Origin: a virus
Direction: 5' to 3' (one strand)
Virus record (IMG/VR): IMGVR_UViG_3300000736_000153
Coordinates: 1-28,588 of that record
Length of the DNA stretch: 28,588 bases
Program-made: the position numbers and the translations under genes
Shown: in pieces, positions 10,855 to 23,800 of the stretch
Layout of the letters: every line of letters begins with the position of its first letter
Numbering within the stretch: the first letter of the stretch is position 1
The notes under the pieces: generated by a model
What the model was told of the DNA's origin: nothing
What the model saw: only the letters and a program-made list of their open reading frames with translations
Database searches by the model: none

Positions 10855-11397
10855 ATGATATCATTTTATAAACCAAATAGTAAAAATACAGGTACGGCCT
10901 GTAGCTTTAGCGTAAATTCAAAAGAAGGTTCAATCTGGAGTTCCTTAATTAAGCAGAGTTCATGGAACGAAGGAACAAAAACGGGTTCATTTTCAGATAA
11001 TAAAGATAATCCTCAAAAGAGTGCAAAAGTAAAGTTTTCAATAACCGAAGCCGCAGGACTACTTGAAGCTTTAGATAAGAATGTAGAATTTTCAGCTTAT
11101 CATTCTTCTGACAAGCAAGTTACAAAAATTAAGTTTTCTCCTTATATTAGAGATGAGAAGCAAGTTGGATTCTCTTATAGCGTAAATAAAGAGAGCAAAG
11201 AGAATGTAGAAAACAAACAATCTTTCCTACTTGGTTTTTACTTTAATGAAGCTAGACTTCTAAGAGAATTTTTAGTTCATGCTCTGCAATCAGTATTTAA
11301 GACTCAAGAAGTTGAAGCAATTAAAAAGTTTAAAAATTCAAAACCTAATCAAGAATCAAATAAATCTAACGCCGAAGAAGACGGCGAACTTTGGTAA
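10855..11397 (+). CDS. probable single-stranded DNA-binding protein
   Basis: This 180-residue protein has a beta-rich body with a phage-type pattern I associate with predicted ssDNA-binding proteins: ISFYKPNSKNTG, a GSFSDN turn, FSITEAAGLLEALDKN, KIKFSPYIRDEKQVGFSYSV and a LLREFLVHAL helix. I infer a PC4/Whirly-like fold but see no diagnostic residue that proves it. A polar linker (KPNQESNKSN) leads to an acidic tip ending in an aromatic residue (AEEDGELW), the plan SSB proteins use to recruit partners. It has its own promoter immediately upstream and sits just after the polymerase gene, as expected for a replication SSB. No other SSB candidate is in the window. Confidence 0.5.
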   Translation: MISFYKPNSKNTGTACSFSVNSKEGSIWSSLIKQSSWNEGTKTGSFSDNKDNPQKSAKVKFSITEAAGLLEALDKNVEFSAYHSSDKQVTKIKFSPYIRDEKQVGFSYSVNKESKENVENKQSFLLGFYFNEARLLREFLVHALQSVFKTQEVEAIKKFKNSKPNQESNKSNAEEDGELW

Positions 11398-11399
11398 TT

Positions 11400-13328
11400 G
11401 TGTCTCGCAAAAAGAAAATAGTTTATCAATCTGATTTCTCTCTAGCCAAAACTGGGTTTGGCAGAGCAGCGAAAGCTCTATTGTCTTATCTTTATAAGAC
11501 AGGTAAGTATGATATTGTACATTATTGCTGTGGAGTGCAATATTCAAATCCAGAATTAAAAAAGACTCCTTGGAAATCAGTAGGTTCGCTTCCAGACAAT
11601 CCCCAAGAAATTGAGCAACTTAACAAAGATCCAAATGTAGCTAGATTAGCTAGTTACGGCGCACATTATCTTGATAGAATTATTCAAGAAGAAAAACCAG
11701 ATACTTATATTGCAGTTCAAGATATTTGGGGTATTGATTTTGCTATTGATAAAAAGTGGTTTAATAAAATTTCTTGCGCTTTATGGACAACTCTAGATTC
11801 TCTGCCTATTCTTCCTAGCGCAGTTGAGAAAGCTCCAAAGATTAAAAACTATTGGATTTGGAGTGATTTCGCAACAAAAGCTTTGCATGAACTTGGACAC
11901 AAGCAAGTCGAAACAGTTCATGGAGCAGTTGAAACTGCCAATTTTTATAGACTAGAAGAATCTCAAAGACGAGACTTAAGAAGTAAATATGGAATTCCAT
12001 TAGATGCATTTATTATTGGTTTCGTATTTAGAAATCAATTAAGAAAAAGCGTTCCCAACCTATTAGAAGGATATGCTTTGTGGAAACGAAGTAATCCTCA
12101 AATTAAAAATACATTCCTATTGCTTCATACTCACTGGGGCGAAGGATGGAATATTCATAAGCTCGCAGCAGAATATGGAATTGATCCAAGGGAAATTCTT
12201 ACTACATATATTTGTAAAAACTGCGGTAATTATGAAATCAAACCCTTTCATGGTCAAGATGTAAATTGTAGATTCTGTGGAAGTGAAAAAAGCCAAGTTA
12301 CAACAAATGTTGGAATTGGAGTAACAGAACAACAATTAAATGAAGTATATAATCTTATGGATGTTTATTGTCATCCATTTACTAGCGGTGGACAAGAGAT
12401 TCCAATCCAAGAAGCTAAACTTACGGAATTGATTACTCTTGTTACTAATTATTCTTGCGGAGAAGAAATGTGTCAAGAAGGCGCTGGCTCATTTGATCTT
12501 GAATGGAGCGAATACAGAGAGCATGGCACAGAATTTATTAAAGCTTCTACAAAACCAAATTCAATCGCCAAGCAAATAAACAAAGTATACAATATGCCCA
12601 TTCAAAAAAGAAGAGAAATGGGTAGAAAAGCTCGCGAATGGACTATCGAGAACTTCTCGGTAGAAACTGTAGGGAAAAGAATAGAGCAATTTATTGATAA
12701 TTCAGAATTTACAGATTACGACTTCTCTCTTAAAGAAGAGGAGAAAGATGCATTTCATCAAGTTCCAAATATTGAAAAAGATAATGAATGGTTAACTTAT
12801 ATGTATCATAATATTCTAAAAATGAAAGACGTTAATGATAATGATGATGGCCATAAATATTGGATGCAAGAAATTTCAAAAGGTGCAAAGCGTCAAGATA
12901 TTGAAAATTATTTTAGACAAGTAGCTTCTCAAGAAAATCAAAAAAACAAAAAAATTGAATTTGAAGATCTTCTAGGCAAAGATGACAAAGGTAAAAGAGT
13001 GTTATATGTTATGCCAGAAAGTATTGGTGATATTTATATATCAACTTCTTTATTCAAGAATATTAAAAAGCAATATCCAGACCACAATCTTTATGTTGCT
13101 ACTAAGCCAGAATATTTCCAAATACTACAAGGAAATCCTCATATCTATAAACTCTTAGAATATATTCCTCAAATGGATCAATTACTTTGGCTTGAAGGCG
13201 CTGGAGATCATAATGGTTATTTTGAAGTAGCTTTCTTGCCCCATGCTGGAACGCAAAGATTTTTAGACTATTTACATAACGGTAAAACTAATATACAATT
13301 TGATATAAAGGAAAATGTATGCACTTAA
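11400..13328 (+). CDS. GT4 glycosyltransferase with zinc ribbon, fused to GT9 N-terminal half
   Basis: Read from GTG 11400 (642 residues); an upstream TTG at 11391 overlaps the previous stop. Residues ~5-445 form a GT-B glycosyltransferase of the GT4 type: DFSLAKTGFGRAA at the N-terminus, KSVPNLLEGYALWKR, and the nucleotide-sugar box HPFTSGGQEIPIQEAKL with two glutamates. A C-x2-C-x14-C-x2-C zinc ribbon (C272, C275, C290, C293) is inserted in the C-terminal Rossmann domain. After a charged linker, residues ~530-642 match the N-terminal half of GT9 heptosyltransferases (KRVLYVMPESIGDIYISTSL). The matching C-terminal half is the next gene, overlapping by 10 bases. The acceptor is unknown. The family assignment is good; how the GT9 halves work together is inference. 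Confidence 0.78.
   Translation: MSRKKKIVYQSDFSLAKTGFGRAAKALLSYLYKTGKYDIVHYCCGVQYSNPELKKTPWKSVGSLPDNPQEIEQLNKDPNVARLASYGAHYLDRIIQEEKPDTYIAVQDIWGIDFAIDKKWFNKISCALWTTLDSLPILPSAVEKAPKIKNYWIWSDFATKALHELGHKQVETVHGAVETANFYRLEESQRRDLRSKYGIPLDAFIIGFVFRNQLRKSVPNLLEGYALWKRSNPQIKNTFLLLHTHWGEGWNIHKLAAEYGIDPREILTTYICKNCGNYEIKPFHGQDVNCRFCGSEKSQVTTNVGIGVTEQQLNEVYNLMDVYCHPFTSGGQEIPIQEAKLTELITLVTNYSCGEEMCQEGAGSFDLEWSEYREHGTEFIKASTKPNSIAKQINKVYNMPIQKRREMGRKAREWTIENFSVETVGKRIEQFIDNSEFTDYDFSLKEEEKDAFHQVPNIEKDNEWLTYMYHNILKMKDVNDNDDGHKYWMQEISKGAKRQDIENYFRQVASQENQKNKKIEFEDLLGKDDKGKRVLYVMPESIGDIYISTSLFKNIKKQYPDHNLYVATKPEYFQILQGNPHIYKLLEYIPQMDQLLWLEGAGDHNGYFEVAFLPHAGTQRFLDYLHNGKTNIQFDIKENVCT
13307..13312 (+). promoter_or_regulatory. 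ribosome-binding site for the GT9 C-half gene
   Basis: AAAGGA lies six bases upstream of ATG 13319, inside the end of the GT4-GT9 gene. This is one of the better Shine-Dalgarno matches in the + strand block. It argues that the GT9 C-half is started independently rather than reached only by frameshifting. Confidence 0.55.
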
Positions 13329-14458
13329 TTGAAAGATATGCAACAGCTTGCGGAGTTAAGATAGATAAACCTTATATCTATGACACCTTTTTTCCAGTCA
13401 ATGTTGAAAAATATATATCATTTCAACCATTTAGTAAATATCAATCAAAAAATTATGATTATTGGGATGAAGTAGTATCAATAATTTCTCCTTATTTACA
13501 AAAAAATAATATTACATTAGTTCATATTGGCGCAAAAGAAGATAAAACTGTTAATAATACTTTAAACTTATGTAGTCAAACAAATATTTCTCAAGCAGCA
13601 TATATTATTAAAAATAGTATAATGCATGTTGGTGCAGATAGTTTTGCTGCTCATATTGCTTCTGGATATGGTAAAAAAATTGTGGCATTATATTCTAATA
13701 ATAATGTCAATAATGTTAAACCATACTGGACTAAGCCAGAGGATATGGTTCTTTTAAGCCCCAAAATAAATAAAAAACCTCAATATTCTGTTAATGAATC
13801 TCCTAAAAGCATTAATAATATTAAGCCAGAAGCTATCGCCGAAGGCATTCTTAAACTATTAAATATTCCGTACAATAATCTTCCTAAGACTGTTTACATT
13901 GGAAATGAATATATCAATAAAACGCTAGAAATAATTCCAGATAAACCCATAAATCCAGCCCAAATTGGATTAGAGACCCTTGTTATTAGAATGGATTATG
14001 TATTTAATGAGCAAGTATTAGAATTATTTTTACAGCAAAAGAAATGTATTGTATTTACTAGTAAACCTATTAACGAAGAACTTCTTAAAAAATACAAACA
14101 AAATATCCCACAATTAATTTATATTGTTGAAAAAGATAATGATACTACCTTTGTAAAAACATTAAAAAGAAATACAATTAATTCAGCTTTTATATCTTAT
14201 CTCTCAGAAGAAGAATTAAATGAATTTAAATTAGATTATATGGACTATGGCCTTATTGTAAAACGAGATCATCCAACCGATAAAATCGAAGCAAGTAATA
14301 ATACATATTTTAAATCTTCAAGAATCCTAATATCTTCTGAAGGTCAATTCAATAGTAGGTATCAATGGGAAACCAAAGATATGTCCAATAAGTATATTAA
14401 TAATCCAGAGTTAAATAAAGAACTCAACAATCTTTATATTTTTAACCTTGACCAATAA
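13319..14458 (+). CDS. GT9 heptosyltransferase C-terminal half plus extra domain
   Basis: The first ~190 residues (of 379) match the C-terminal Rossmann domain of GT9 ADP-heptose transferases. HLIERYATACGV is the helix that normally links the two halves. Residues ~100-127 (IMHVGADSFAAHIASGYG) are the GT9 donor-site box, usually 'vv.nDTg..HlAaa.g.p.valfg'. The N-terminal half is encoded at the end of the previous gene in another frame. Residues ~200-379 are a second, unrecognised domain with alternating strands and helices (PAQIGLETLVIRMDYVFN, KKCIVFTSKPI). Such a split could leave two chains that assemble into one enzyme. A sequencing or evolutionary frameshift is the alternative. No transmembrane segments are present, so it is presumably cytoplasmic. 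Confidence 0.65.
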   Translation: MHLIERYATACGVKIDKPYIYDTFFPVNVEKYISFQPFSKYQSKNYDYWDEVVSIISPYLQKNNITLVHIGAKEDKTVNNTLNLCSQTNISQAAYIIKNSIMHVGADSFAAHIASGYGKKIVALYSNNNVNNVKPYWTKPEDMVLLSPKINKKPQYSVNESPKSINNIKPEAIAEGILKLLNIPYNNLPKTVYIGNEYINKTLEIIPDKPINPAQIGLETLVIRMDYVFNEQVLELFLQQKKCIVFTSKPINEELLKKYKQNIPQLIYIVEKDNDTTFVKTLKRNTINSAFISYLSEEELNEFKLDYMDYGLIVKRDHPTDKIEASNNTYFKSSRILISSEGQFNSRYQWETKDMSNKYINNPELNKELNNLYIFNLDQ

Positions 14459-14483: not shown

Positions 14484-15284
14484 ATGAGTCCTAAAATCAA
14501 ATCAGAAGAAAATACAATATCAATTGGTAGTTCGGAATTATTTGAGGCAGTTGTTGTTTCAGAACAAAAGACGGAAACCCCTCAAGTAGTTCCTCCGAAA
14601 TTAATAACAAGAAATCAATACGGCCTTATCGAAGATAAGAGTCTTAATTATGTATTTAATGATGATGGAACTATTAATTGGCGTAAAATGGTAAAGACCG
14701 AACATCTTGTTCCAAACAGACAAAAGACTCAAGAAACAGATGTCTCAAAACTTCAAGATAAAGATTTGCTTATCCTTTTAGGTGGAATTAAAGAACTTGC
14801 CCAAATTCGTGGATATACAAGTGTTGAATATAAAGTAGTAGCAGCTTCTGAGAGTTATTTTGCAACAAGCTGTAAGATAACTTGGTTGCCAAATTATGAA
14901 ACTGGTGGAAAAGAGATCGTTTTTGAATCTCTAGCTGACGCTACAGTAAATAATACAAAGAGTTTCGCAAGATTCTTCTTAGCTGCGATTGCTGAAAATC
15001 GCGCCTTTGTAAGATGTGTGAGAAATTTCTTGAAGATTAATATCGTATCTCAAGAAGAACTTGGAGATGCTAAATTATTGGATGAAGGATCAAGTGTTAA
15101 TGATAATCCAACTTCTCCTCAAGCAGTTCTTGAAAAAGTAATGAAAGATAAGGGTATTAATTTTGATCAATTAAAGAAAAAATTAGTTAAAGAAAAATTT
15201 GAAAATGCTGAAAATTTAAATAGTATCTTAGATATTCCTAAGAGTAAAATCTTTGAATTAATAGAAAGGATTAAAAAAGCATGA
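14484..15284 (+). CDS. possible single-strand annealing / recombination protein
   Basis: This 266-residue protein is not recognised with certainty. The middle (~85-195) has an alpha/beta pattern (LLILLGGIKELAQIRGY, EYKVVAASESYF, CKITWLPN) leading to a helix-rich stretch with RFFLAAIAENRAFVRCVRN and then NIVSQEELG. That 'A...R...A..R..R..l.i' helix recalls phage annealing proteins of the Rad52/DUF1071/ERF type. The C-terminal ~50 residues (GINFDQLKKKL, ENLNSILDIPKSKIFELI) resemble the small C-terminal helical domain many of those proteins carry. Residues 1-80 are mostly polar. It has its own promoter and would be expressed with replication genes. The annealing role is inference; a replisome accessory factor is equally possible. 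Confidence 0.38.
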   Translation: MSPKIKSEENTISIGSSELFEAVVVSEQKTETPQVVPPKLITRNQYGLIEDKSLNYVFNDDGTINWRKMVKTEHLVPNRQKTQETDVSKLQDKDLLILLGGIKELAQIRGYTSVEYKVVAASESYFATSCKITWLPNYETGGKEIVFESLADATVNNTKSFARFFLAAIAENRAFVRCVRNFLKINIVSQEELGDAKLLDEGSSVNDNPTSPQAVLEKVMKDKGINFDQLKKKLVKEKFENAENLNSILDIPKSKIFELIERIKKA

Positions 15285-15440: not shown

Positions 15441-16280
15441 ATGTTTAAGAAAATATTTTCTCTTTTTCGAGAAGATCCAGAGATAGAATTTTATTCTATA
15501 ATCCCCGGATTAGAAGAGCTCAATAAACCGACTCCAGCATATAAAGATCCTGTTCCAAATTGGGTTAGAAATAGAGCTGAAAAAACTAAAGAAATTTTAA
15601 AAAATATTAATTTAAATCCAGAGAATATATCTGGAAATACATTTTTTGTAGAAAAATGTCCCGGAATTAGGTCTATTATAAATGAAGGCATTCATTTAAA
15701 AACTTGGCAAGATATAAGGGTGTCTTTGGTGTCTAACGATGAGAAGGGAGAATATTTAATTCATACTCCAACTCAAACATCATCATTAACTAATGGAAAT
15801 TTTATATCTCCAGAAGTTCAATCCCATAATGGTGATCAATTTCCTGAATTTATAAAATCAAGAGAAGATTCTTGGCCACATATTTTAAAAATTATGTCTA
15901 ACTGGAGAGTTAATATCAACAAAAATTGGCAAATACTTCTACTACCAACATATTATTCTAATGAATCGCAATTGTTCTCTGCTGTGCCGGGAATTTTTAA
16001 TCCAGAATTTGGATCGCACTTAAATATTAATATCCAAATACATAAAAAAGCACCAACTTCTTTTATTATTCCAGCTGGAACATCAATAGTAAAATTAATA
16101 CCAATTAAAAAAAATCAAAATTTTAATATTAAAATTAGAAAAGTTACAAATAAAGATGTTCTCAAAGAACAAGCTACGCTAGCTTTATTGAAAAAGAGAT
16201 TTATTAGTTCAAGAAAAGAACAATTGGGAGACTTAGAAAAGATGCGTGAATCAATTAAAAAATGCCCATTCTTCAATTAA
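15441..16280 (+). CDS. conserved phage protein, DUF6065-like, function unknown
   Basis: This 279-residue protein has a set of landmarks I associate with a DUF6065-like family of marine and other environmental phages: an N-terminal EIEFYSIIPGLEEL, a PVPNWVR box, EKCPGI (C73-P74-G75) followed by GIHLKTWQDI, a central W-rich part (SWPHILKIM, NWRVNINKNW), and near the C-terminus IPAGTSIVKLIPI (P211 onward). I do not know an experimentally established function. Members often sit among glycosyltransferase or host-interaction genes; here it directly precedes a GT8 gene. The last ~40 residues are a basic coiled-coil-like tail ending KKCPFFN. ATG 15441 lacks a Shine-Dalgarno sequence. Confidence 0.55.
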   Translation: MFKKIFSLFREDPEIEFYSIIPGLEELNKPTPAYKDPVPNWVRNRAEKTKEILKNINLNPENISGNTFFVEKCPGIRSIINEGIHLKTWQDIRVSLVSNDEKGEYLIHTPTQTSSLTNGNFISPEVQSHNGDQFPEFIKSREDSWPHILKIMSNWRVNINKNWQILLLPTYYSNESQLFSAVPGIFNPEFGSHLNINIQIHKKAPTSFIIPAGTSIVKLIPIKKNQNFNIKIRKVTNKDVLKEQATLALLKKRFISSRKEQLGDLEKMRESIKKCPFFN

Positions 16281-16281
16281 A

Positions 16282-17016
16282 ATGAAAAAAGCAATTATAA
16301 CATATAATTGGTTAAAAACATCATATCAAGAGGCTTTCGAGAAAGTTGTACTTCCTAGAATGGAATTTTTAGCTAAAAAATGGGATGTAGAATTAATTGT
16401 TTCTGATGAATTAAATCCAGAAATTAAAAATGAAAATTTACATCAAAGCAGTCATTTGTATCATTATAATAAACTTTTTATTTTAAAAGATTTAATTAAA
16501 AAATTTGATAGAGTATTATGCGTAGATGGTGATATGGTTTTATCTAGAGAAATGCCTAATATTTTTGAAATTTATCCTATGAATTATTTTTACGCAGTTT
16601 TAGATGCGTGCAATGGAGATGAATATTGTTTTAATAGAAATGATGAAATGATTGCTTCTCAAGCTTTGTTAGGAACAATCAACTGGACTTACGGATATTA
16701 TAATACTGGACTTATGCTGTTGGAAAATCAACATTATAAAATTTTTGAAGATTGTGATTATAAAGTTATGTTTAGATTCACGGATCAAACAAAAATTAAT
16801 TATTATTTAAGAAAATATAATTTTTTACATAAAAATCTATCAAAACAATTCAATTCTATGGCTATAAATTGTATAGATGCCAAAGAAAGCCCTTCGATAA
16901 TCAATTTAGTAACTCCAGAGATTTTATCAAAAAATTGTTGGGTTGCTCATGCTGCAGCAATTTCAGACGATTTAAGAAATGATTATATATTTAAATTGGA
17001 TCTTTTAATGCCATAA
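16282..17016 (+). CDS. GT8-family glycosyltransferase
   Basis: This protein (244 residues from ATG 16282) fits the GT-A fold, family 8 (LgtC/glycogenin-like). The start of the fold is KKAIITYNWLKTSYQEAF, and the metal-binding DxD is D82-G-D84 in VLCVDGDMVLSREMP. It is followed by FYAVLDACNGD, a GYYNTGLMLL segment typical of GT8, TDQTKINYYL (the D-Q pair of the acceptor side) and NCWVAHAAA near the end. An alternative ATG at 16246 lies within the upstream gene and would add 12 unlikely residues, so 16282 (one base after the TAA) is preferred. No Shine-Dalgarno sequence is seen. GT8 enzymes transfer glucose, galactose or related sugars with retention. It may extend a sugar added by the heptosyltransferases that follow, but that is inference. 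Confidence 0.78.
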   Translation: MKKAIITYNWLKTSYQEAFEKVVLPRMEFLAKKWDVELIVSDELNPEIKNENLHQSSHLYHYNKLFILKDLIKKFDRVLCVDGDMVLSREMPNIFEIYPMNYFYAVLDACNGDEYCFNRNDEMIASQALLGTINWTYGYYNTGLMLLENQHYKIFEDCDYKVMFRFTDQTKINYYLRKYNFLHKNLSKQFNSMAINCIDAKESPSIINLVTPEILSKNCWVAHAAAISDDLRNDYIFKLDLLMP

Positions 17017-17022
17017 ATCTTA

Positions 17023-17979
17023 ATGAATGATAGCGTATACTTTAATGGTTCAATTTTGGGTTTAGGAGATACGATTGCTCTAATACCTTTTATAAATATT
17101 TATAAAATTGAGAATAATAAAAATGTATTTTTTTTAACTAATTTTTATAGTTTATTTGAAAATGAATATAAAAATATCTTCTTCATAAAAGATCCTTCTC
17201 AAATTTCAATTTCTGATTCATTTGTAGAGATTGAATATAATCAAAAAAAATTTATCGCATACGACAGATATAACCTCGCCTATCATACAGCTCATTATGT
17301 AAAAAAAGATTTTGAAATTTTAAAAAATGAAAGACTTCCATTACAGCATCAATTAAGTAAATTTATTGGGATTAATTTTAAAGAAGAAATTAAACCAAAT
17401 ATTCATCTTTCAAATCAAAATTTTAACTATCAAAATAAATATGTTTGTATATCTACTCAAACCACTATGCAAGCGAAATATTGGAATTATGAAAATGGTT
17501 GGGAGAAAATAGCTGAATACCTTAAAAAAAATGGATATGACGTTATATGTGTTGATAAGCATGAATTTTATGGAAATTTAGTATACATGAATAGTATACC
17601 TAAAAATGCGATTAATAAAACTGGATTACCTTTAAATAAAGTAGCAAATATAATTAATAAATGCGATTTTTTTATAGGATTGGACTCTGGTCTTTCATGG
17701 TTGGCTTGGGCATTGAATAAGAAAGTAATACAAATACTTGGGATGACGGGGAAAAGTATAGCTTTTGAAAATAAATATAGTATAATAAATCAAAATGTTT
17801 GTAATACCTGTTTCTCAGATCAAAATTTAAATGTTTTTTCTGGTGATGTGCCATTTAATGATTTTTTAATGTGTCCAAAACATAAGAATACACCAAGAAT
17901 TTTTGAATGCACAAAGTCAATAACTCCAGAGATGGTGATTGAGAAAATAGATCAAATTTTAAATGAAAAAACAAGATAA
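17023..17979 (+). CDS. autotransporter-type O-heptosyltransferase (BAHT/TibC-like), copy 1
   Basis: This 318-residue protein resembles bacterial autotransporter heptosyltransferases (TIGR04414-like; TibC, Aah), which add ADP-heptose-derived sugars to Ser residues on beta-helical repeats. Evidence: SILGLGDTIALIPFI at the N-terminus; STQTTMQAKYWNYENGWEKI; FFIGLDSGLSWLAWALNKK; and a four-cysteine iron finger at C260, C263, C284 and C296 (C-x2-C-x20-C-x11-C) inside NVCNTCF, MCPKHKNTPRIFEC and SITPEMVIE. The donor-side loop (ILGMTGKSIAFE) diverges from the usual ISGFs.p.tEF, which copy 2 retains, so specificity may differ. It lies seven bases after the GT8 gene and overlaps copy 2 by 17 bases. It should act in the cytoplasm. 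No Shine-Dalgarno sequence is present. Confidence 0.8.
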   Translation: MNDSVYFNGSILGLGDTIALIPFINIYKIENNKNVFFLTNFYSLFENEYKNIFFIKDPSQISISDSFVEIEYNQKKFIAYDRYNLAYHTAHYVKKDFEILKNERLPLQHQLSKFIGINFKEEIKPNIHLSNQNFNYQNKYVCISTQTTMQAKYWNYENGWEKIAEYLKKNGYDVICVDKHEFYGNLVYMNSIPKNAINKTGLPLNKVANIINKCDFFIGLDSGLSWLAWALNKKVIQILGMTGKSIAFENKYSIINQNVCNTCFSDQNLNVFSGDVPFNDFLMCPKHKNTPRIFECTKSITPEMVIEKIDQILNEKTR

Positions 17980-18847
17980 TATTTTAATACATTTTAATTC
18001 AGATTGTTTAGGTGATTCGATAGCTTGGATGCCTTATGTAGAAGAATATAGAAAATTAAGTAACAATAAAGTCTATTGCGTAAATTTTTTAAATAAAATA
18101 TTTAATTATGGAAATATAAATTTTATAAATAAACAAGATATAGAAAACTTTGTTTTTGATAAAGTATATTTCCTAGGTTTTTGGATTGAAAATCTTAAAT
18201 TTAAAGAAATGAACTTGAAAGATCCAAGAACTTTAAATCTTCAAGAAGTAGCTTGCGACATTTTAAAAATACCATATAAAGAAATAAAACCAAATTTATT
18301 TATTAAGGATAATCAAAATAAATATAGAAATAAATATGTTTGTATAGCTACCCAAAGCACTTCTCAAGCCAAATATTGGAATCATGAAAATGGTTGGGAA
18401 AAAGTAATAAATTATTTAAATATTAAAGGATATGATGCATTATGTATTGATAAATATAATAAATATGGCAATTTAGTATACATGAATAATATGCCATCAA
18501 ATGCTATAGATAAAACTGGAGATATAGACATTCAAACTAGAATAACTGATATACTTAATTGTGAATTTTTTATTGGATTACCATCTGGACTCTCATGGTT
18601 AGCTTGGGCTTTAAATAAGAAAGTGATATTAATAAGTGGATTTAGCGATCCAAAAACAGAATTTTTTACTCCATATAGAGTAATAAATAAAAATGTGTGC
18701 AATAGCTGTTGGAATGATACAGAATTTATCTTTCCATATGATAATTTTATCTATTGTCCAAGACATAAAAATACACCGAGAATTTTTGAATGTACAAAAT
18801 TTATAACACCAGAAATGGTAATAGAACAAATTAATAAGATTATTTAA
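17963..18847 (+). CDS. autotransporter-type O-heptosyltransferase (BAHT/TibC-like), copy 2
   Basis: This 294-residue paralogue of the preceding gene is the more canonical member. It has SDCLGDSIAWMPYVEEYR, ATQSTSQAKYWNHENGWEKV, FFIGLPSGLSWLAWALNKK, ISGFSDPKTEFFTPYRVIN and an iron-finger set C246, C249, C265 and C277 (C-x2-C-x15-C-x11-C) in NVCNSCWND, YCPRHKNTPRIFEC and FITPEMVIE. Known relatives O-glycosylate Ser on repetitive autotransporter passengers. Long stretches are shared with copy 1 (for example around KYGNLVYMNNMPSNAIDKTG), showing a tandem duplication. It ends tail-to-tail with the x-Ala-x repeat fibre gene, the two overlapping by eight bases. That adjacency makes the fibre the leading candidate acceptor; host surface proteins are the alternative. 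Confidence 0.87.
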   Translation: MKKQDNILIHFNSDCLGDSIAWMPYVEEYRKLSNNKVYCVNFLNKIFNYGNINFINKQDIENFVFDKVYFLGFWIENLKFKEMNLKDPRTLNLQEVACDILKIPYKEIKPNLFIKDNQNKYRNKYVCIATQSTSQAKYWNHENGWEKVINYLNIKGYDALCIDKYNKYGNLVYMNNMPSNAIDKTGDIDIQTRITDILNCEFFIGLPSGLSWLAWALNKKVILISGFSDPKTEFFTPYRVINKNVCNSCWNDTEFIFPYDNFIYCPRHKNTPRIFECTKFITPEMVIEQINKII

Positions 18848-20864
18848 CTAAGAAAGTTTTATTTTGACTAACACCATTTATACAAACTGCAAGTACTAAT
18901 TCAGTAAAATCTCCTACGCTACCAGCCTTAGCAGCAGAACCTGCATTAGCAGCAGAACCTGCATTAGTGGCAGTACCAGCATAGGCAGCACTTCCTGCTC
19001 CAGCAGAGGAAGCATAGGATGCAAAAGCTGCATTAGTGGCAGTACCAGCATAGGCAGCAGTTCCAGCGTAACTTGAATTCGTAGCAAATGCTGCATTAGT
19101 CGCAGTACCAGCGTAAGATGAATTCGTTGCAAACCCTGCATTAGTCGCAGTACCAGCGTAAGATGAATTCGTTGCAAACCCTGCATTAGTCGCAGTTCCA
19201 GCGTATCCAGCTCTTCCAGCGTAATTTGAATTCGTTGCAAACCCTGCATTAGTCGCAGTTCCAGCGTATGAAGCGTTAGTAGCTGTATCAGCTCTTCCAG
19301 CGTAATTTGAATTCGTTGCAAACCCTGCATTAGTCGCAGTTCCAGCGTATCCTGCGTTACTTGTAAAAGATGAATTCGTTGCAAACCCTGCATTAGTCGC
19401 AGTACCAGCGTATCCTGCGTTACTAGCAAAAGATGAATTCGTAGCAAACCCTGCATTAGTCGCAGTTCCAGCGTATCCTGCGTTACTAGCAAAAGATGAA
19501 TTCGTTGCAAACCCTGCATTAGTCGCAGTTCCAGCGTATGAAGCGTTAGTAGCTGTACCAGCTCTTCCAGCGTAATTTGAATTCGTTGCAAATGCTGCAT
19601 TAGTCGCAGTTCCAGCGTATCCTGCGTTACTTGTAAAAGATGAATTCGTAGCAAATGCTGCATTAGTAGCAGTACCAGCGTATCCTGCGTTACTTGTAAA
19701 AGATGAATTCGTTGCAAACCCTGCATTAGTCGCAGTACCAGCGTATCCTGCGTTACTAGCAAAAGATGAATTCGTTGCAAACCCTGCATTAGTCGCAGTT
19801 CCAGCGTATCCTGCGTTACTGGCAAAAGATGAATTCGTAGCAAACCCCGCATTGGTCGCAGTACCAGCGTATGAAGCGTTTCCCCCTCCTTGAGTACCAG
19901 CAATTGCAGCATAGGCAGCATTTGTAGCAAATGCTGCATCAGTAGCAGTACCAGCGTATCCTGCGTTACTAGCAAAAGATGAATTCGTTGCAAACCCTGC
20001 ATTAGTCGCAGTACCAGCGTATCCTGCGTTACTAGCAAAAGATGAATTCGTAGCAAATCCTGCATTACTCGCAGTACCAGCGTATCCTGCGTTACTAGCA
20101 AAAGATGAATTCGTAGCAAATCCTGCGTTACTCGCAGTACCAGCGTAGGCAGCATTTCCTCCTCCTCCTCCGAACCCAGCAACTGCAGCATAGGCAGCAT
20201 TTGTAGCAAATGCTGCATTTGTCGCCGCAGTAGCTACATCGGCTGTACCTGCATAAAATGCGTAAAACGCTTCGTCTGAATATCCCGCGAATTGTGCGTA
20301 ATACGAATAACTTGCTCGAATTGCATCATCAGCAACGCCAGCGTATGAAGCATAGCGTGCATTTGACGCAAGATCAGCATTTTTGACAAAAGTATTTGGT
20401 AAATAAACATTTCCATTTGAATTAGATAAAATATAAACAGGAGAATTAGTAGTACCCCAATTTCTTAAAGTAACTTGAGAATTAACAGGAATATTGTCTG
20501 TACTTAATTGAATATTTTTACTTGTATCAGTTATATTAAATGAAACAGAAGTATTTGAAACTTTATTAGATATAGTTCTATTGCTACTTTTAATATCTAA
20601 ATTCATACTATCTCCATAACCATAAATTAATGCTTGATAGCTTGGAAATTGAGCGCTTTTGAAGGTTATTCCTGCGTTATATTGATAAGATTCAAAATAT
20701 GGAGAAGCACTTGAAGTTTGACGAATAGAGTTAAGATAAAGTACATTATCACACCATTCAGTATAAAGAGGATTTGTTCCTAAAACTAAATCTCGTGTTT
20801 TTGGATTTAGACAAGCTGCTCCTAATAATGTATCTCCAAAATCTGATTTAAATTGAGCTGGCAT
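18840..20864 (-). CDS. tail-fibre protein with long x-Ala-x triplet repeat
   Basis: This 674-residue structural protein has a unique N-terminal region (residues 1-161; MPAQFKSDFGDTLLGAACL..., ending in beta-rich SVSFNITDTSKNIQL) that probably anchors it to the tail. A continuous array of triplets with Ala in the middle runs over residues ~162-648. The core 21-residue unit is seven triplets, beginning NAG-YAG-TAT and ending NSS-FAS, and at least ten units are clear. Two glycine-rich breaks (GFGGGGG and GTQGGG) divide the array. The C-terminus (TELVLAVCINGVSQNK...) is a short non-repetitive cap. Such low-complexity arrays are typical of phage fibres. The start ATG (complement of 20862-20864) has AAAGGT upstream. 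The Ser/Thr-rich array faces two heptosyltransferase genes. Confidence 0.85.
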   Translation of the reverse strand: MPAQFKSDFGDTLLGAACLNPKTRDLVLGTNPLYTEWCDNVLYLNSIRQTSSASPYFESYQYNAGITFKSAQFPSYQALIYGYGDSMNLDIKSSNRTISNKVSNTSVSFNITDTSKNIQLSTDNIPVNSQVTLRNWGTTNSPVYILSNSNGNVYLPNTFVKNADLASNARYASYAGVADDAIRASYSYYAQFAGYSDEAFYAFYAGTADVATAATNAAFATNAAYAAVAGFGGGGGNAAYAGTASNAGFATNSSFASNAGYAGTASNAGFATNSSFASNAGYAGTATNAGFATNSSFASNAGYAGTATDAAFATNAAYAAIAGTQGGGNASYAGTATNAGFATNSSFASNAGYAGTATNAGFATNSSFASNAGYAGTATNAGFATNSSFTSNAGYAGTATNAAFATNSSFTSNAGYAGTATNAAFATNSNYAGRAGTATNASYAGTATNAGFATNSSFASNAGYAGTATNAGFATNSSFASNAGYAGTATNAGFATNSSFTSNAGYAGTATNAGFATNSNYAGRADTATNASYAGTATNAGFATNSNYAGRAGYAGTATNAGFATNSSYAGTATNAGFATNSSYAGTATNAAFATNSSYAGTAAYAGTATNAAFASYASSAGAGSAAYAGTATNAGSAANAGSAAKAGSVGDFTELVLAVCINGVSQNKTFLVK
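18921..20381 (-). repeat. direct-repeat DNA encoding the x-Ala-x array
   Basis: About 1.46 kb of imperfect tandem repeats, mainly 63-bp units (21 codons), with 45-bp variants near the C-terminal-coding end where the FAS-NAG hexamer is missing. Units differ by synonymous and a few missense changes (FAS/FTS, TAT/TAS, NAG/NAA). The palindrome GAATTC recurs in most units because it encodes part of T-N-S. Local GC is visibly higher than in the flanking sequence. The near-identity of units makes them good substrates for unequal recombination. Confidence 0.9.
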
Positions 20865-20866
20865 TT

Positions 20867-23800
20867 TTACCTTTGATTATGACTTATACCACTAATAATT
20901 ACACTTTTATATTTATTAGTAATATTGTATCCACTTAATGTCAATCTACCAGTTATATCATCTTCATTATTAAAATAATTTCTACTTTTAACCATAACAT
21001 GTAATCTATTTGTATCAATATCGATTATTCCACTACCAGTATACATATTATTTATTATATCTTTATTTAACCCTGATATTCCAGTTAAAAATCCATTTAA
21101 ATAATATCCAGTAGAAATATCAAAAGCGTCAAAAAATGATTTTGTATATTCTTGTCCAGTAATTAAACCAGTAAATAAATAGTTTCCAGTTCTAGAAACG
21201 AAACCAGTAGCAACTAGGTTAGTTATATAACCTGTGAAATTTATATCAGCAAAAGCATGAGTTCTATTAAAATTATAATTATTTGCAAATACAGTATTTA
21301 TATTACCAAAATTAACAAAATCTATACCAGTTCCTAATAAACTAGAAGATAATATATCTAAATTACTGCTATTTATTCTATTGTATTGAGTCCAAGAATT
21401 TTGATTTCCAGTATAAATATATATTGCGCCAGATCCTAAATCATCATATGGCGCGCCAATTGCTAAAAGATTTCCATATTTATTTAAAATTACTTTGTTT
21501 CCAAAATATGCGGTAGAATTAATATTTCCACTTATAAAGCTTGATTGTATCCAACCATTTTGATTTCCAGTATAGATATATACTCCACCACTATTAAAAT
21601 TATATCCTTGCGCTCCAACTGCAGCTGTATCTCCAATTTCATTTAAAGAAACTGAGCAACCAAAATTATCATTAGTAATATTTCCTGATCCTACCAATGT
21701 AGATAATAAATTATAATTATTATAATCACCAGTAAATATATAACTACGCCCATTAGTTCCGTTTGGTGAGCCAACTATAATTACATTTCCATTTCTATTT
21801 ATATCAGAAGAAGAACCGAAATTATTAGTTGAAATATTTGAATTTCCACTAATTTTAGATATTTGTTGCCATTGATTTTTTGTCCAACCAATATCTGTTG
21901 AAAAAATGCTAACATAATCATGTTTTTCTATATTAGATGAAAAAGTATTAGATGAAATTGCTAAAATTTTTCCATTAGGACTTGTTGCTGTATTATAACC
22001 AAAATTATAATAATCTCCTGAAAATGAAGGTTGATTTAGAACTTCTCCAGTAAATGAAAGAGCTTGACCCCACTCATTTCCATTTCCAGTATAAAGATAA
22101 ACTGCGCCAGTTGTATTACCATCAAGATTATCCAACGTATTTGATATTAAAACTTGATTTCCAGATTTATTTAAATTAACTTCTGTACCCCAAAAAACAT
22201 TAGAACCAGTAAATGTTGCTGCTGTATCCCAATTAGAACCACTTCCTGTAAATAGAAATGCAGTATATGGACTAGTAGCATTTCCAAGCCCAACTAATAC
22301 CATATTTCCAGAAGAATTCATAGAAATAGAATTTCCAAATCTAAATCTAGTTTGTGAAGATGAACCAGTTATTAAAGCTGCTTGATCCCAAGTAGATCCA
22401 TTACCAGTATAAATCCAAACTGCGCCAGTTGCTAATGCACTTGTTGTAGTTGGTCTTCCATAAAATGGTTGACCAATCGCTATAGTATTTCCATCATCAC
22501 TAATAGCAGTAGAATAACCAAATTGTCCAGCATATCTATTTGAAAATCCCGTTATCCTAGCTACTTCGCCCCAATTAGAACCACTTCCTGTAAATATCCA
22601 AGCTGCTCCGGTGTAGGCGCTCTCTGTACTTAAATTAGATCCATTCCAAAGCGGGCCACCAATAACTGCGACTGTTCCACTTGTATTTAAAGAAATTGAA
22701 CTACCAAATGAAGCTCCACTTGATTGTGAACCAGATAATACTGCGACTTTATTCCAATTTTTTTCATTTCCAGTATAAACATAAACTAATCCAGAATTAA
22801 TTGTTCCAAAGTTTCTAGAATCAAATCCAGCAGCCATGAGAATATTTCCACTAGAATTTACAGCAAGTGATCTACCTAAATTTGTTATATTTGAATCTCC
22901 GCTTATTTCAAAATATTGACTCCAATTTGATCCATTTCCAGTATATATAAAAATTGAGCCTGTTCCGTACTGAGTATTTCCTTTGCCTTTGTTACTTGCG
23001 CCAATAAATAATTTATCTCCATTACCATTAAACTGAGTACTAATACCAAAATTATCAGTATTGCCTATTCCCAATTGATTAGGATTATAACTTCCACTTA
23101 TTATATTTTTACTATATAAATCATATTTTTTGTATATATTTGCTGAACCAGAATTATTATTGTCTCCTTGATTCCCAATCACTAAAATATTTCCACTATT
23201 TAAAGCTAATGAACTTCCAAAGTATTCCCCAGAATTTTCTATGATTTGTGCATCATAAATACTTTGGTTAGATCCAGTTAATAGGTAAACTCTTCCAGTA
23301 AGTGGATCTCCTACTGTTGAACTAATAGCAAAATTATTTCCTTCTCTATTAATTTTTATTTCTTTTCCAAATTGAATATCTCCAGATATTCCAGAGTATT
23401 GTGATTTTAGATCCCATGATACTCCATTTCCAGTAAAAAATAACACTGAACCAGTAGATGATATTGTTTCTTGATTGCTTAGTATAAAAAAAGTTCCAGA
23501 ATCATTAGAACTTACTCTAATAGGAGAATTAATTTCATAAGTTGGCGTAGCGAATGATTGAATATTTTGAGTAAAAATACTAGTTATTATATTATTATAA
23601 TCAATATAACCATTCGAAGTAAAAGTATTTAATACAAAATCTTGATTATCAATAAATTGTTGATTCAAATAATATCCAGTAGCAACTAATGTTCTCGCCA
23701 TAGAAACATTTCCAGTTATAAATGCATAATTTTGGGTTGATCCAGTTATAAAACCAGTAACGCTAACTCCAGATAAACCGTTGTATCCAGTTGCTGCTAG

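Follow-up and report, generated by a model that had tools for sequence, protein, structure and literature searches.

The DNA considered here, referred to below as the window, is the entire IMG/VR virus record IMGVR_UViG_3300000736_000153, a genome fragment of 28,588 bases. Its plus strand carries a replication module (RecA/UvsX-like protein, DnaB, ThyX, DNA polymerase III alpha and others, named partly by sequence reading), its minus strand carries a structural module, and several glycosyltransferases are also encoded in it. Two of these lie in tandem on the plus strand, copy 1 at 17023–17979 (318 aa) and copy 2 at 17963–18847 (294 aa), and are of the bacterial autotransporter heptosyltransferase (BAHT) type represented by TibC and Aah. 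The minus-strand gene at 18840–20864 encodes a 674-aa fibre-like protein, the likely acceptor of the sugars; this gene and that of copy 2 are placed tail-to-tail, with their stops overlapping by 8 bases. From this arrangement, a preliminary description proposed that the phage glycosylates its own fibre.

The sequence landmarks SGLSWLAWAL, four cysteines and NTPRIFECTK are common to both copies, which are 46% identical to each other. When compared with TIGR04414, the NCBI family of Aah/TibC (profile length 374), copy 1 scores 217 bits and copy 2 scores 307 bits, both above the curated cut-off of 200 bits, in accord with the preliminary description of two tandem paralogues of this family. TibC is the sole strong match of both copies in the PDB (E 2e-41 for copy 1 and 5e-62 for copy 2). 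The structural comparison with TibC gave the same answer: an AlphaFold model of copy 2 (29-row alignment, pLDDT 93) shows a full GT-B fold that superimposes on TibC (PDB 4RAP) with a TM (template modelling) score of 0.93–0.94 at 1.7 Å, and the next matches, with far weaker scores, are the lipopolysaccharide (LPS) heptosyltransferases WaaF/WaaC and a protein of glycosyltransferase family 9 (GT9; other families are abbreviated likewise). In the model, two short strands lie near the position of the β-hairpin thumb of TibC, with tip residues that differ from those of TibC. The N-terminal domain of TibC (about 80–90 residues) is missing from both copies: their profile matches begin at TIGR04414 position 81–88, and neither copy is matched by PF21129, the N-terminal β-barrel (TibC residues 1–97). 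Such short forms of 270–300 aa are recurrent across many phage loci, where they often come right after a long form. Profile, catalytic core and fold thus class the copies as BAHT-type proteins, in a phage variant that lacks the barrel.

Residues singled out in the TibC study (PMC4358343) were mapped onto both copies, with the numbering verified residue by residue. Copy 2 keeps the catalytic base, D110, and all the donor residues (T226, K230, R286, P300 and W305), and copy 1 keeps D110, T226, K230 and W305 but has Val in place of R286 and Asp in place of P300; the four cysteines of the putative iron finger can all be aligned with those of TibC in both copies. Across 133 phage-locus BAHT domains, the catalytic base, W305 and the cysteines are almost invariant. 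R286 is kept in 40/40 bacterial sequences and missing in 42 of the 101 phage sequences of the deduplicated tree set, and many tandem pairs combine one R286 copy with one non-R286 copy, the exceptions being pairs with R286 in both copies (L022, L025, L028, L038) or in neither (L052, L063, L076). In TibC, R286 contacts the adenine and thereby bears on the choice of an ADP-sugar, and residue 300 determines the heptose stereoselectivity (PMC4358343). Since both copies possess the base and the iron-finger cysteines and differ at the nucleotide- and sugar-binding site, the better guess is that they have diverged in donor (or in acceptor), and the enzyme/helper pair that had been suggested earlier is not favoured. 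The addition of a heptose (~192 Da) by copy 2, with its Arg286 and Pro300, appears plausible from these residues, and the loss of Arg286, confined to phage copies, provides a concrete lead toward a changed donor sugar.

The fibre-like protein consists of a head (aa 1–160), an Ala-triplet array (about 161–650, some 490 residues) and a short C-terminal tip. In most 60-residue stretches of the array, one triplet position is occupied by Ala in 75–85% of cases, and the register shifts fall at Gly-rich linkers; despite these shifts, 86 Ala residues stand in a single fixed phase, the mean for shuffled sequences being 56 and the maximum 71. At the DNA level, the array bears a 63-bp tandem unit with a 93–94% match, which corresponds to 21 residues (AGTATNAGFATNSSFASNAGY), and it is mostly built from this unit. 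It contains 56 Ser and 66 Thr. Both the reading frames and the array statistics agree with the fibre gene as initially described. Profile matches of the fibre to SclB and to the Plasmodium HRP reflect low complexity and not homology.

The association of the two components was followed among sibling phages, located by a DnaB scan, with the syntenic region read in 27 of the 44 records so obtained. TIGR04414 proteins are encoded in only 2/44 DnaB-scan records. A BAHT gene and an Ala-array fibre occur together in 4/4 carriers and are both absent from 25/25 BAHT-less sibling regions (Fisher's test, 4e-5; 7e-5 with duplicates removed). Because the tail module of many BAHT-less siblings is of another, lambda-like type, the conservative figure is the 0.014 obtained for the strictly comparable same-slot group. 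The carriers are the window and G006, with a BAHT pair, and G034 and L075, with a single copy and without a GT8-like gene; homologues of the window fibre have the same layout in G006 and a partial one in G034 and L075. For G034 and G054, in-frame stops were flagged within the BAHT matches, but open reading frames of 293 and 292 aa are present there, and the stops are therefore read as lying just upstream. The nearest sibling, L199, whose neighbouring genes are 90–96% identical, has a 201-aa protein in the fibre slot, with neither array nor BAHT; its head resembles that of the window fibre (E 3e-4 in a single comparison). In L186, L188 and L200, the slot is filled by a protein with a Thr-rich GAT array, again without BAHT, and the heads of these three proteins show no significant match to the window fibre. 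Other virion genes of the module (starting at 20867, 25512 and 27840) are found without BAHT in siblings and therefore do not track it.

A similar association is seen across more distant phages. An alignment scan detected at least 569 BAHT-encoding stretches in viral contigs. Among 60 distinct loci, the density of triplet arrays is 41 per Mb up to 3 kb from a BAHT gene and 15 per Mb farther away, and there are none in 1.0 Mb of DnaB control loci. Conversely, when viral records were picked solely by a (GTS)n collagen-like fibre, BAHT was found in 24 of 50, compared with 2/44 and 1/40 in two control sets; for records of 20–150 kb only, the figures are 18/42 and 2/42. Within contigs, the distance between BAHT and the (GTS)n fibre is shorter than under random placement (combined p 0.001, some contigs being related). 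In several phages, BAHT is fused with GT4, methyltransferase or other glycosyltransferase domains. In the region L007:4040-13996, the gene for a 2255-aa fusion (GT4, methyltransferase, PLOD-type glycosyltransferase, DUF6625, FkbM methyltransferase and BAHT) stands 13 nt upstream of the gene for a 1058-aa (GTS)n protein, and in the cultured Microcystis phage Mel-JY01 such a BAHT fusion and a (GTS)n fibre are 1.7 kb apart. The co-occurrence of BAHT and repeat fibres had been set beforehand as a test of the proposal; it is strongly supported, both among the siblings and in the (GTS)n records, and self-glycosylation is supported as a statistical association and not by one neighbourhood alone. At L082:9545-12785, in an IMG/VR record, a BAHT gene overlaps by 34 bases the gene of a collagen-like GEKGDKGDQ protein; the latter is poor in Ser and Thr, so that the acceptor at this locus may be a different protein.

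Taken together, these data make it fairly probable that the phage BAHT enzymes glycosylate Ser residues of the phage's own repetitive fibre, the block 15441–20864 serving as a swappable fibre-plus-modification cassette. According to this scheme, both BAHT-type GT-B enzymes would be produced in the infected cell and would glycosylate the adjacent, tail-to-tail encoded fibre on its Ser, possibly also Thr, side chains. The most likely donor for copy 2 is host ADP-heptose; copy 1 would probably take another sugar nucleotide or modify another site. Further sugars may be added to the glycan by the GT8-like enzyme, and the fibre would enter the virion already glycosylated. What has stood of the initial proposal is the family, the fold and the co-occurrence; from these we infer glycosylation of the fibre itself, together with the sugars used, the order of the steps and the benefit, be it rigidity, protection, binding or masking.

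Several observations weigh against this scheme. Removal of 80 or 95 N-terminal residues from TibC abolishes its activity on TibA (PMC4358343), and in view of this result the absence of the barrel from both copies speaks against it. TibC modified Ser and not Thr (PMC4358343). No gene of heptose synthesis (gmhA or hldE domains) scored over the cut-off in 51 BAHT records, so that a phage-encoded ADP-heptose supply finds no support there; the donor would therefore have to be supplied by the host, or a different sugar would have to be used. Ser is not enriched in BAHT-linked Ala arrays as compared with Ala arrays without BAHT, so Ser content is not supported as a mark of the linked arrays. Moreover, Ala-array fibres with similar Ser content occur without BAHT in nine other phages, and an Ala array alone therefore does not imply BAHT. 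For many phage BAHTs, in turn, the DNA examined contains no array. Finally, in the association counts every record is taken as independent although some are related, and fragments make up most of the records.

An alternative is that the enzymes act on the surface of the host, be it on a protein, on LPS or on another glycan, to block superinfection and adjoin the fibre simply as parts of a shared hypervariable host-recognition region. GT9 paralogues act on LPS, and the weaker structural matches of the copy 2 model to WaaF/WaaC point in the same direction. Natural targets of BAHTs are cell-surface autotransporters (PMC4358343), and modification of the host surface has been proposed for fibre-region glycosyltransferases of pelagimyophages in a passage of PMC7029224. 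However, the closest characterised relatives of the two copies target Ser of proteins and not LPS, and the association is specific to triplet-repeat fibres and is seen starting from either partner, so we consider modification of the host surface unlikely. It is still less probable that the target is another virion protein or the phage DNA and that the fibre is merely a neighbour in the same exchange block. Phage glycosyltransferases do act on DNA or capsid (work cited in PMC12619734), and cassette swaps move whole blocks; the acceptor can therefore not be told from linkage alone. Yet the module's other structural genes occur in siblings without BAHT, array and BAHT are both missing from the nearest sibling, and in fold and residues the BAHTs correspond to a transferase that acts on Ser of proteins.

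For want of the barrel domain, the short copies might also be inactive remnants or structural partners. This seems improbable to a high degree: at only 46% identity, the two copies still preserve the catalytic and iron-finger residues, short forms with the same residues recur in many phage loci, and the short protein is modelled confidently as a full GT-B fold. Glycosylation of the fibre by the enzymes encoded beside it remains the preferred explanation.

The rest of the block consists of two plus-strand genes. At 16246–17016, a GT8-like glycosyltransferase is encoded (PF01501, E 4e-6), which is present in the cassette of both paired-BAHT phages, the window and G006, and absent from those of G034 and L075; a search of viral contigs with this protein gave no relatives. 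The gene at 15441–16280 encodes a function-unassigned phrog_7084 protein that co-occurs with the cassette, since among the loci examined it is confined to the four siblings that have the cassette. Its distant cyanophage relatives (24–26% identity) are encoded in the fibre region, among genes for tail-fibre assembly, tryptophan halogenases and 2-oxoglutarate/Fe(II) oxygenases (2OG-Fe(II)), and the latter two enzymes may also modify fibres. Upstream, two genes at 11391–14458 have the halves of GT9 divided between them: the first encodes a GT4 protein with the N-terminal half, and the second carries the C-terminal half. A frameshift or pseudogene reading of this pair is ruled out, for two separate genes are kept in siblings; the pair and the gene at 14484–15284 are present in every syntenic region read, with or without BAHT, and the pair is therefore placed outside the cassette. 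In the siblings L176–L202, the GT4 genes are 68–96% identical and the tail modules differ completely, being either of the window type or made up of lambda-like minor tail proteins; judged from the sequences, whole tails have been exchanged next to a replication module that stayed conserved. Distant from the cassette, at 1513–2292, lies a DUF4422 protein, another putative glycosyltransferase.

The BAHTs known so far act on Ser residues in repetitive proteins (PMC4358343). With TibC/AAH (TIGR04414; PDB 4RAP, 4RB4), the window system shares the profile, the fold, the catalytic base, the donor-phosphate residues and the iron-finger cysteines, as well as a repetitive Ser-containing protein encoded next to the enzyme. 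It differs in its location in a phage, the lack of the N-terminal barrel, the tandem copies and one altered donor site, and its neighbour is an Ala-triplet fibre of a phage structural module and not a β-helical autotransporter. Decoration of virion structural proteins by phage glycosyltransferases, proposed here, has been shown for mycobacteriophages, where the glycans are carried by the capsid and tail-tube C-termini (Freeman et al. 2023, cited in PMC12619734), in contrast to the BAHT-type enzymes and repeat fibre of the window. Clustering of glycosyltransferases with tail-fibre genes is also described for pelagimyophages in the passage of PMC7029224 mentioned above, but those enzymes are mostly GT8, BAHT goes unnamed there, and modification of the host O-chain is proposed for them by the authors. 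The preliminary description knew of no phage example. This holds for the open-access literature searched, where no paper was found on phage BAHTs, on glycosylated triplet-repeat fibres or on a link of TibC/O-heptosyltransferases with phage fibres; it does not hold for the databases, since at least one phage entry in UniProt is already named 'Glycosyltransferase Aah/TibC' and viral contigs encode the many relatives counted above.

A broader possibility, which we put forward tentatively and hold to be somewhat doubtful, is that BAHT-type enzymes constitute a widespread phage toolkit for O-glycosylation of triplet-repeat tail fibres (collagen-like Gly-x-y and Ala-x-y), in which phage-specific paralogues with a changed donor nucleotide site add sugars other than ADP-heptose. 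Were this so, the fibres of many large aquatic phages would be glycosylated by enzymes so far treated chiefly as accessory to the virulence autotransporters of bacteria, and the window would offer a directly testable enzyme–acceptor pair. Some glycosyltransferases of phage host-recognition regions, usually read as DNA- or O-antigen-modifying, would thereby gain a specific role.
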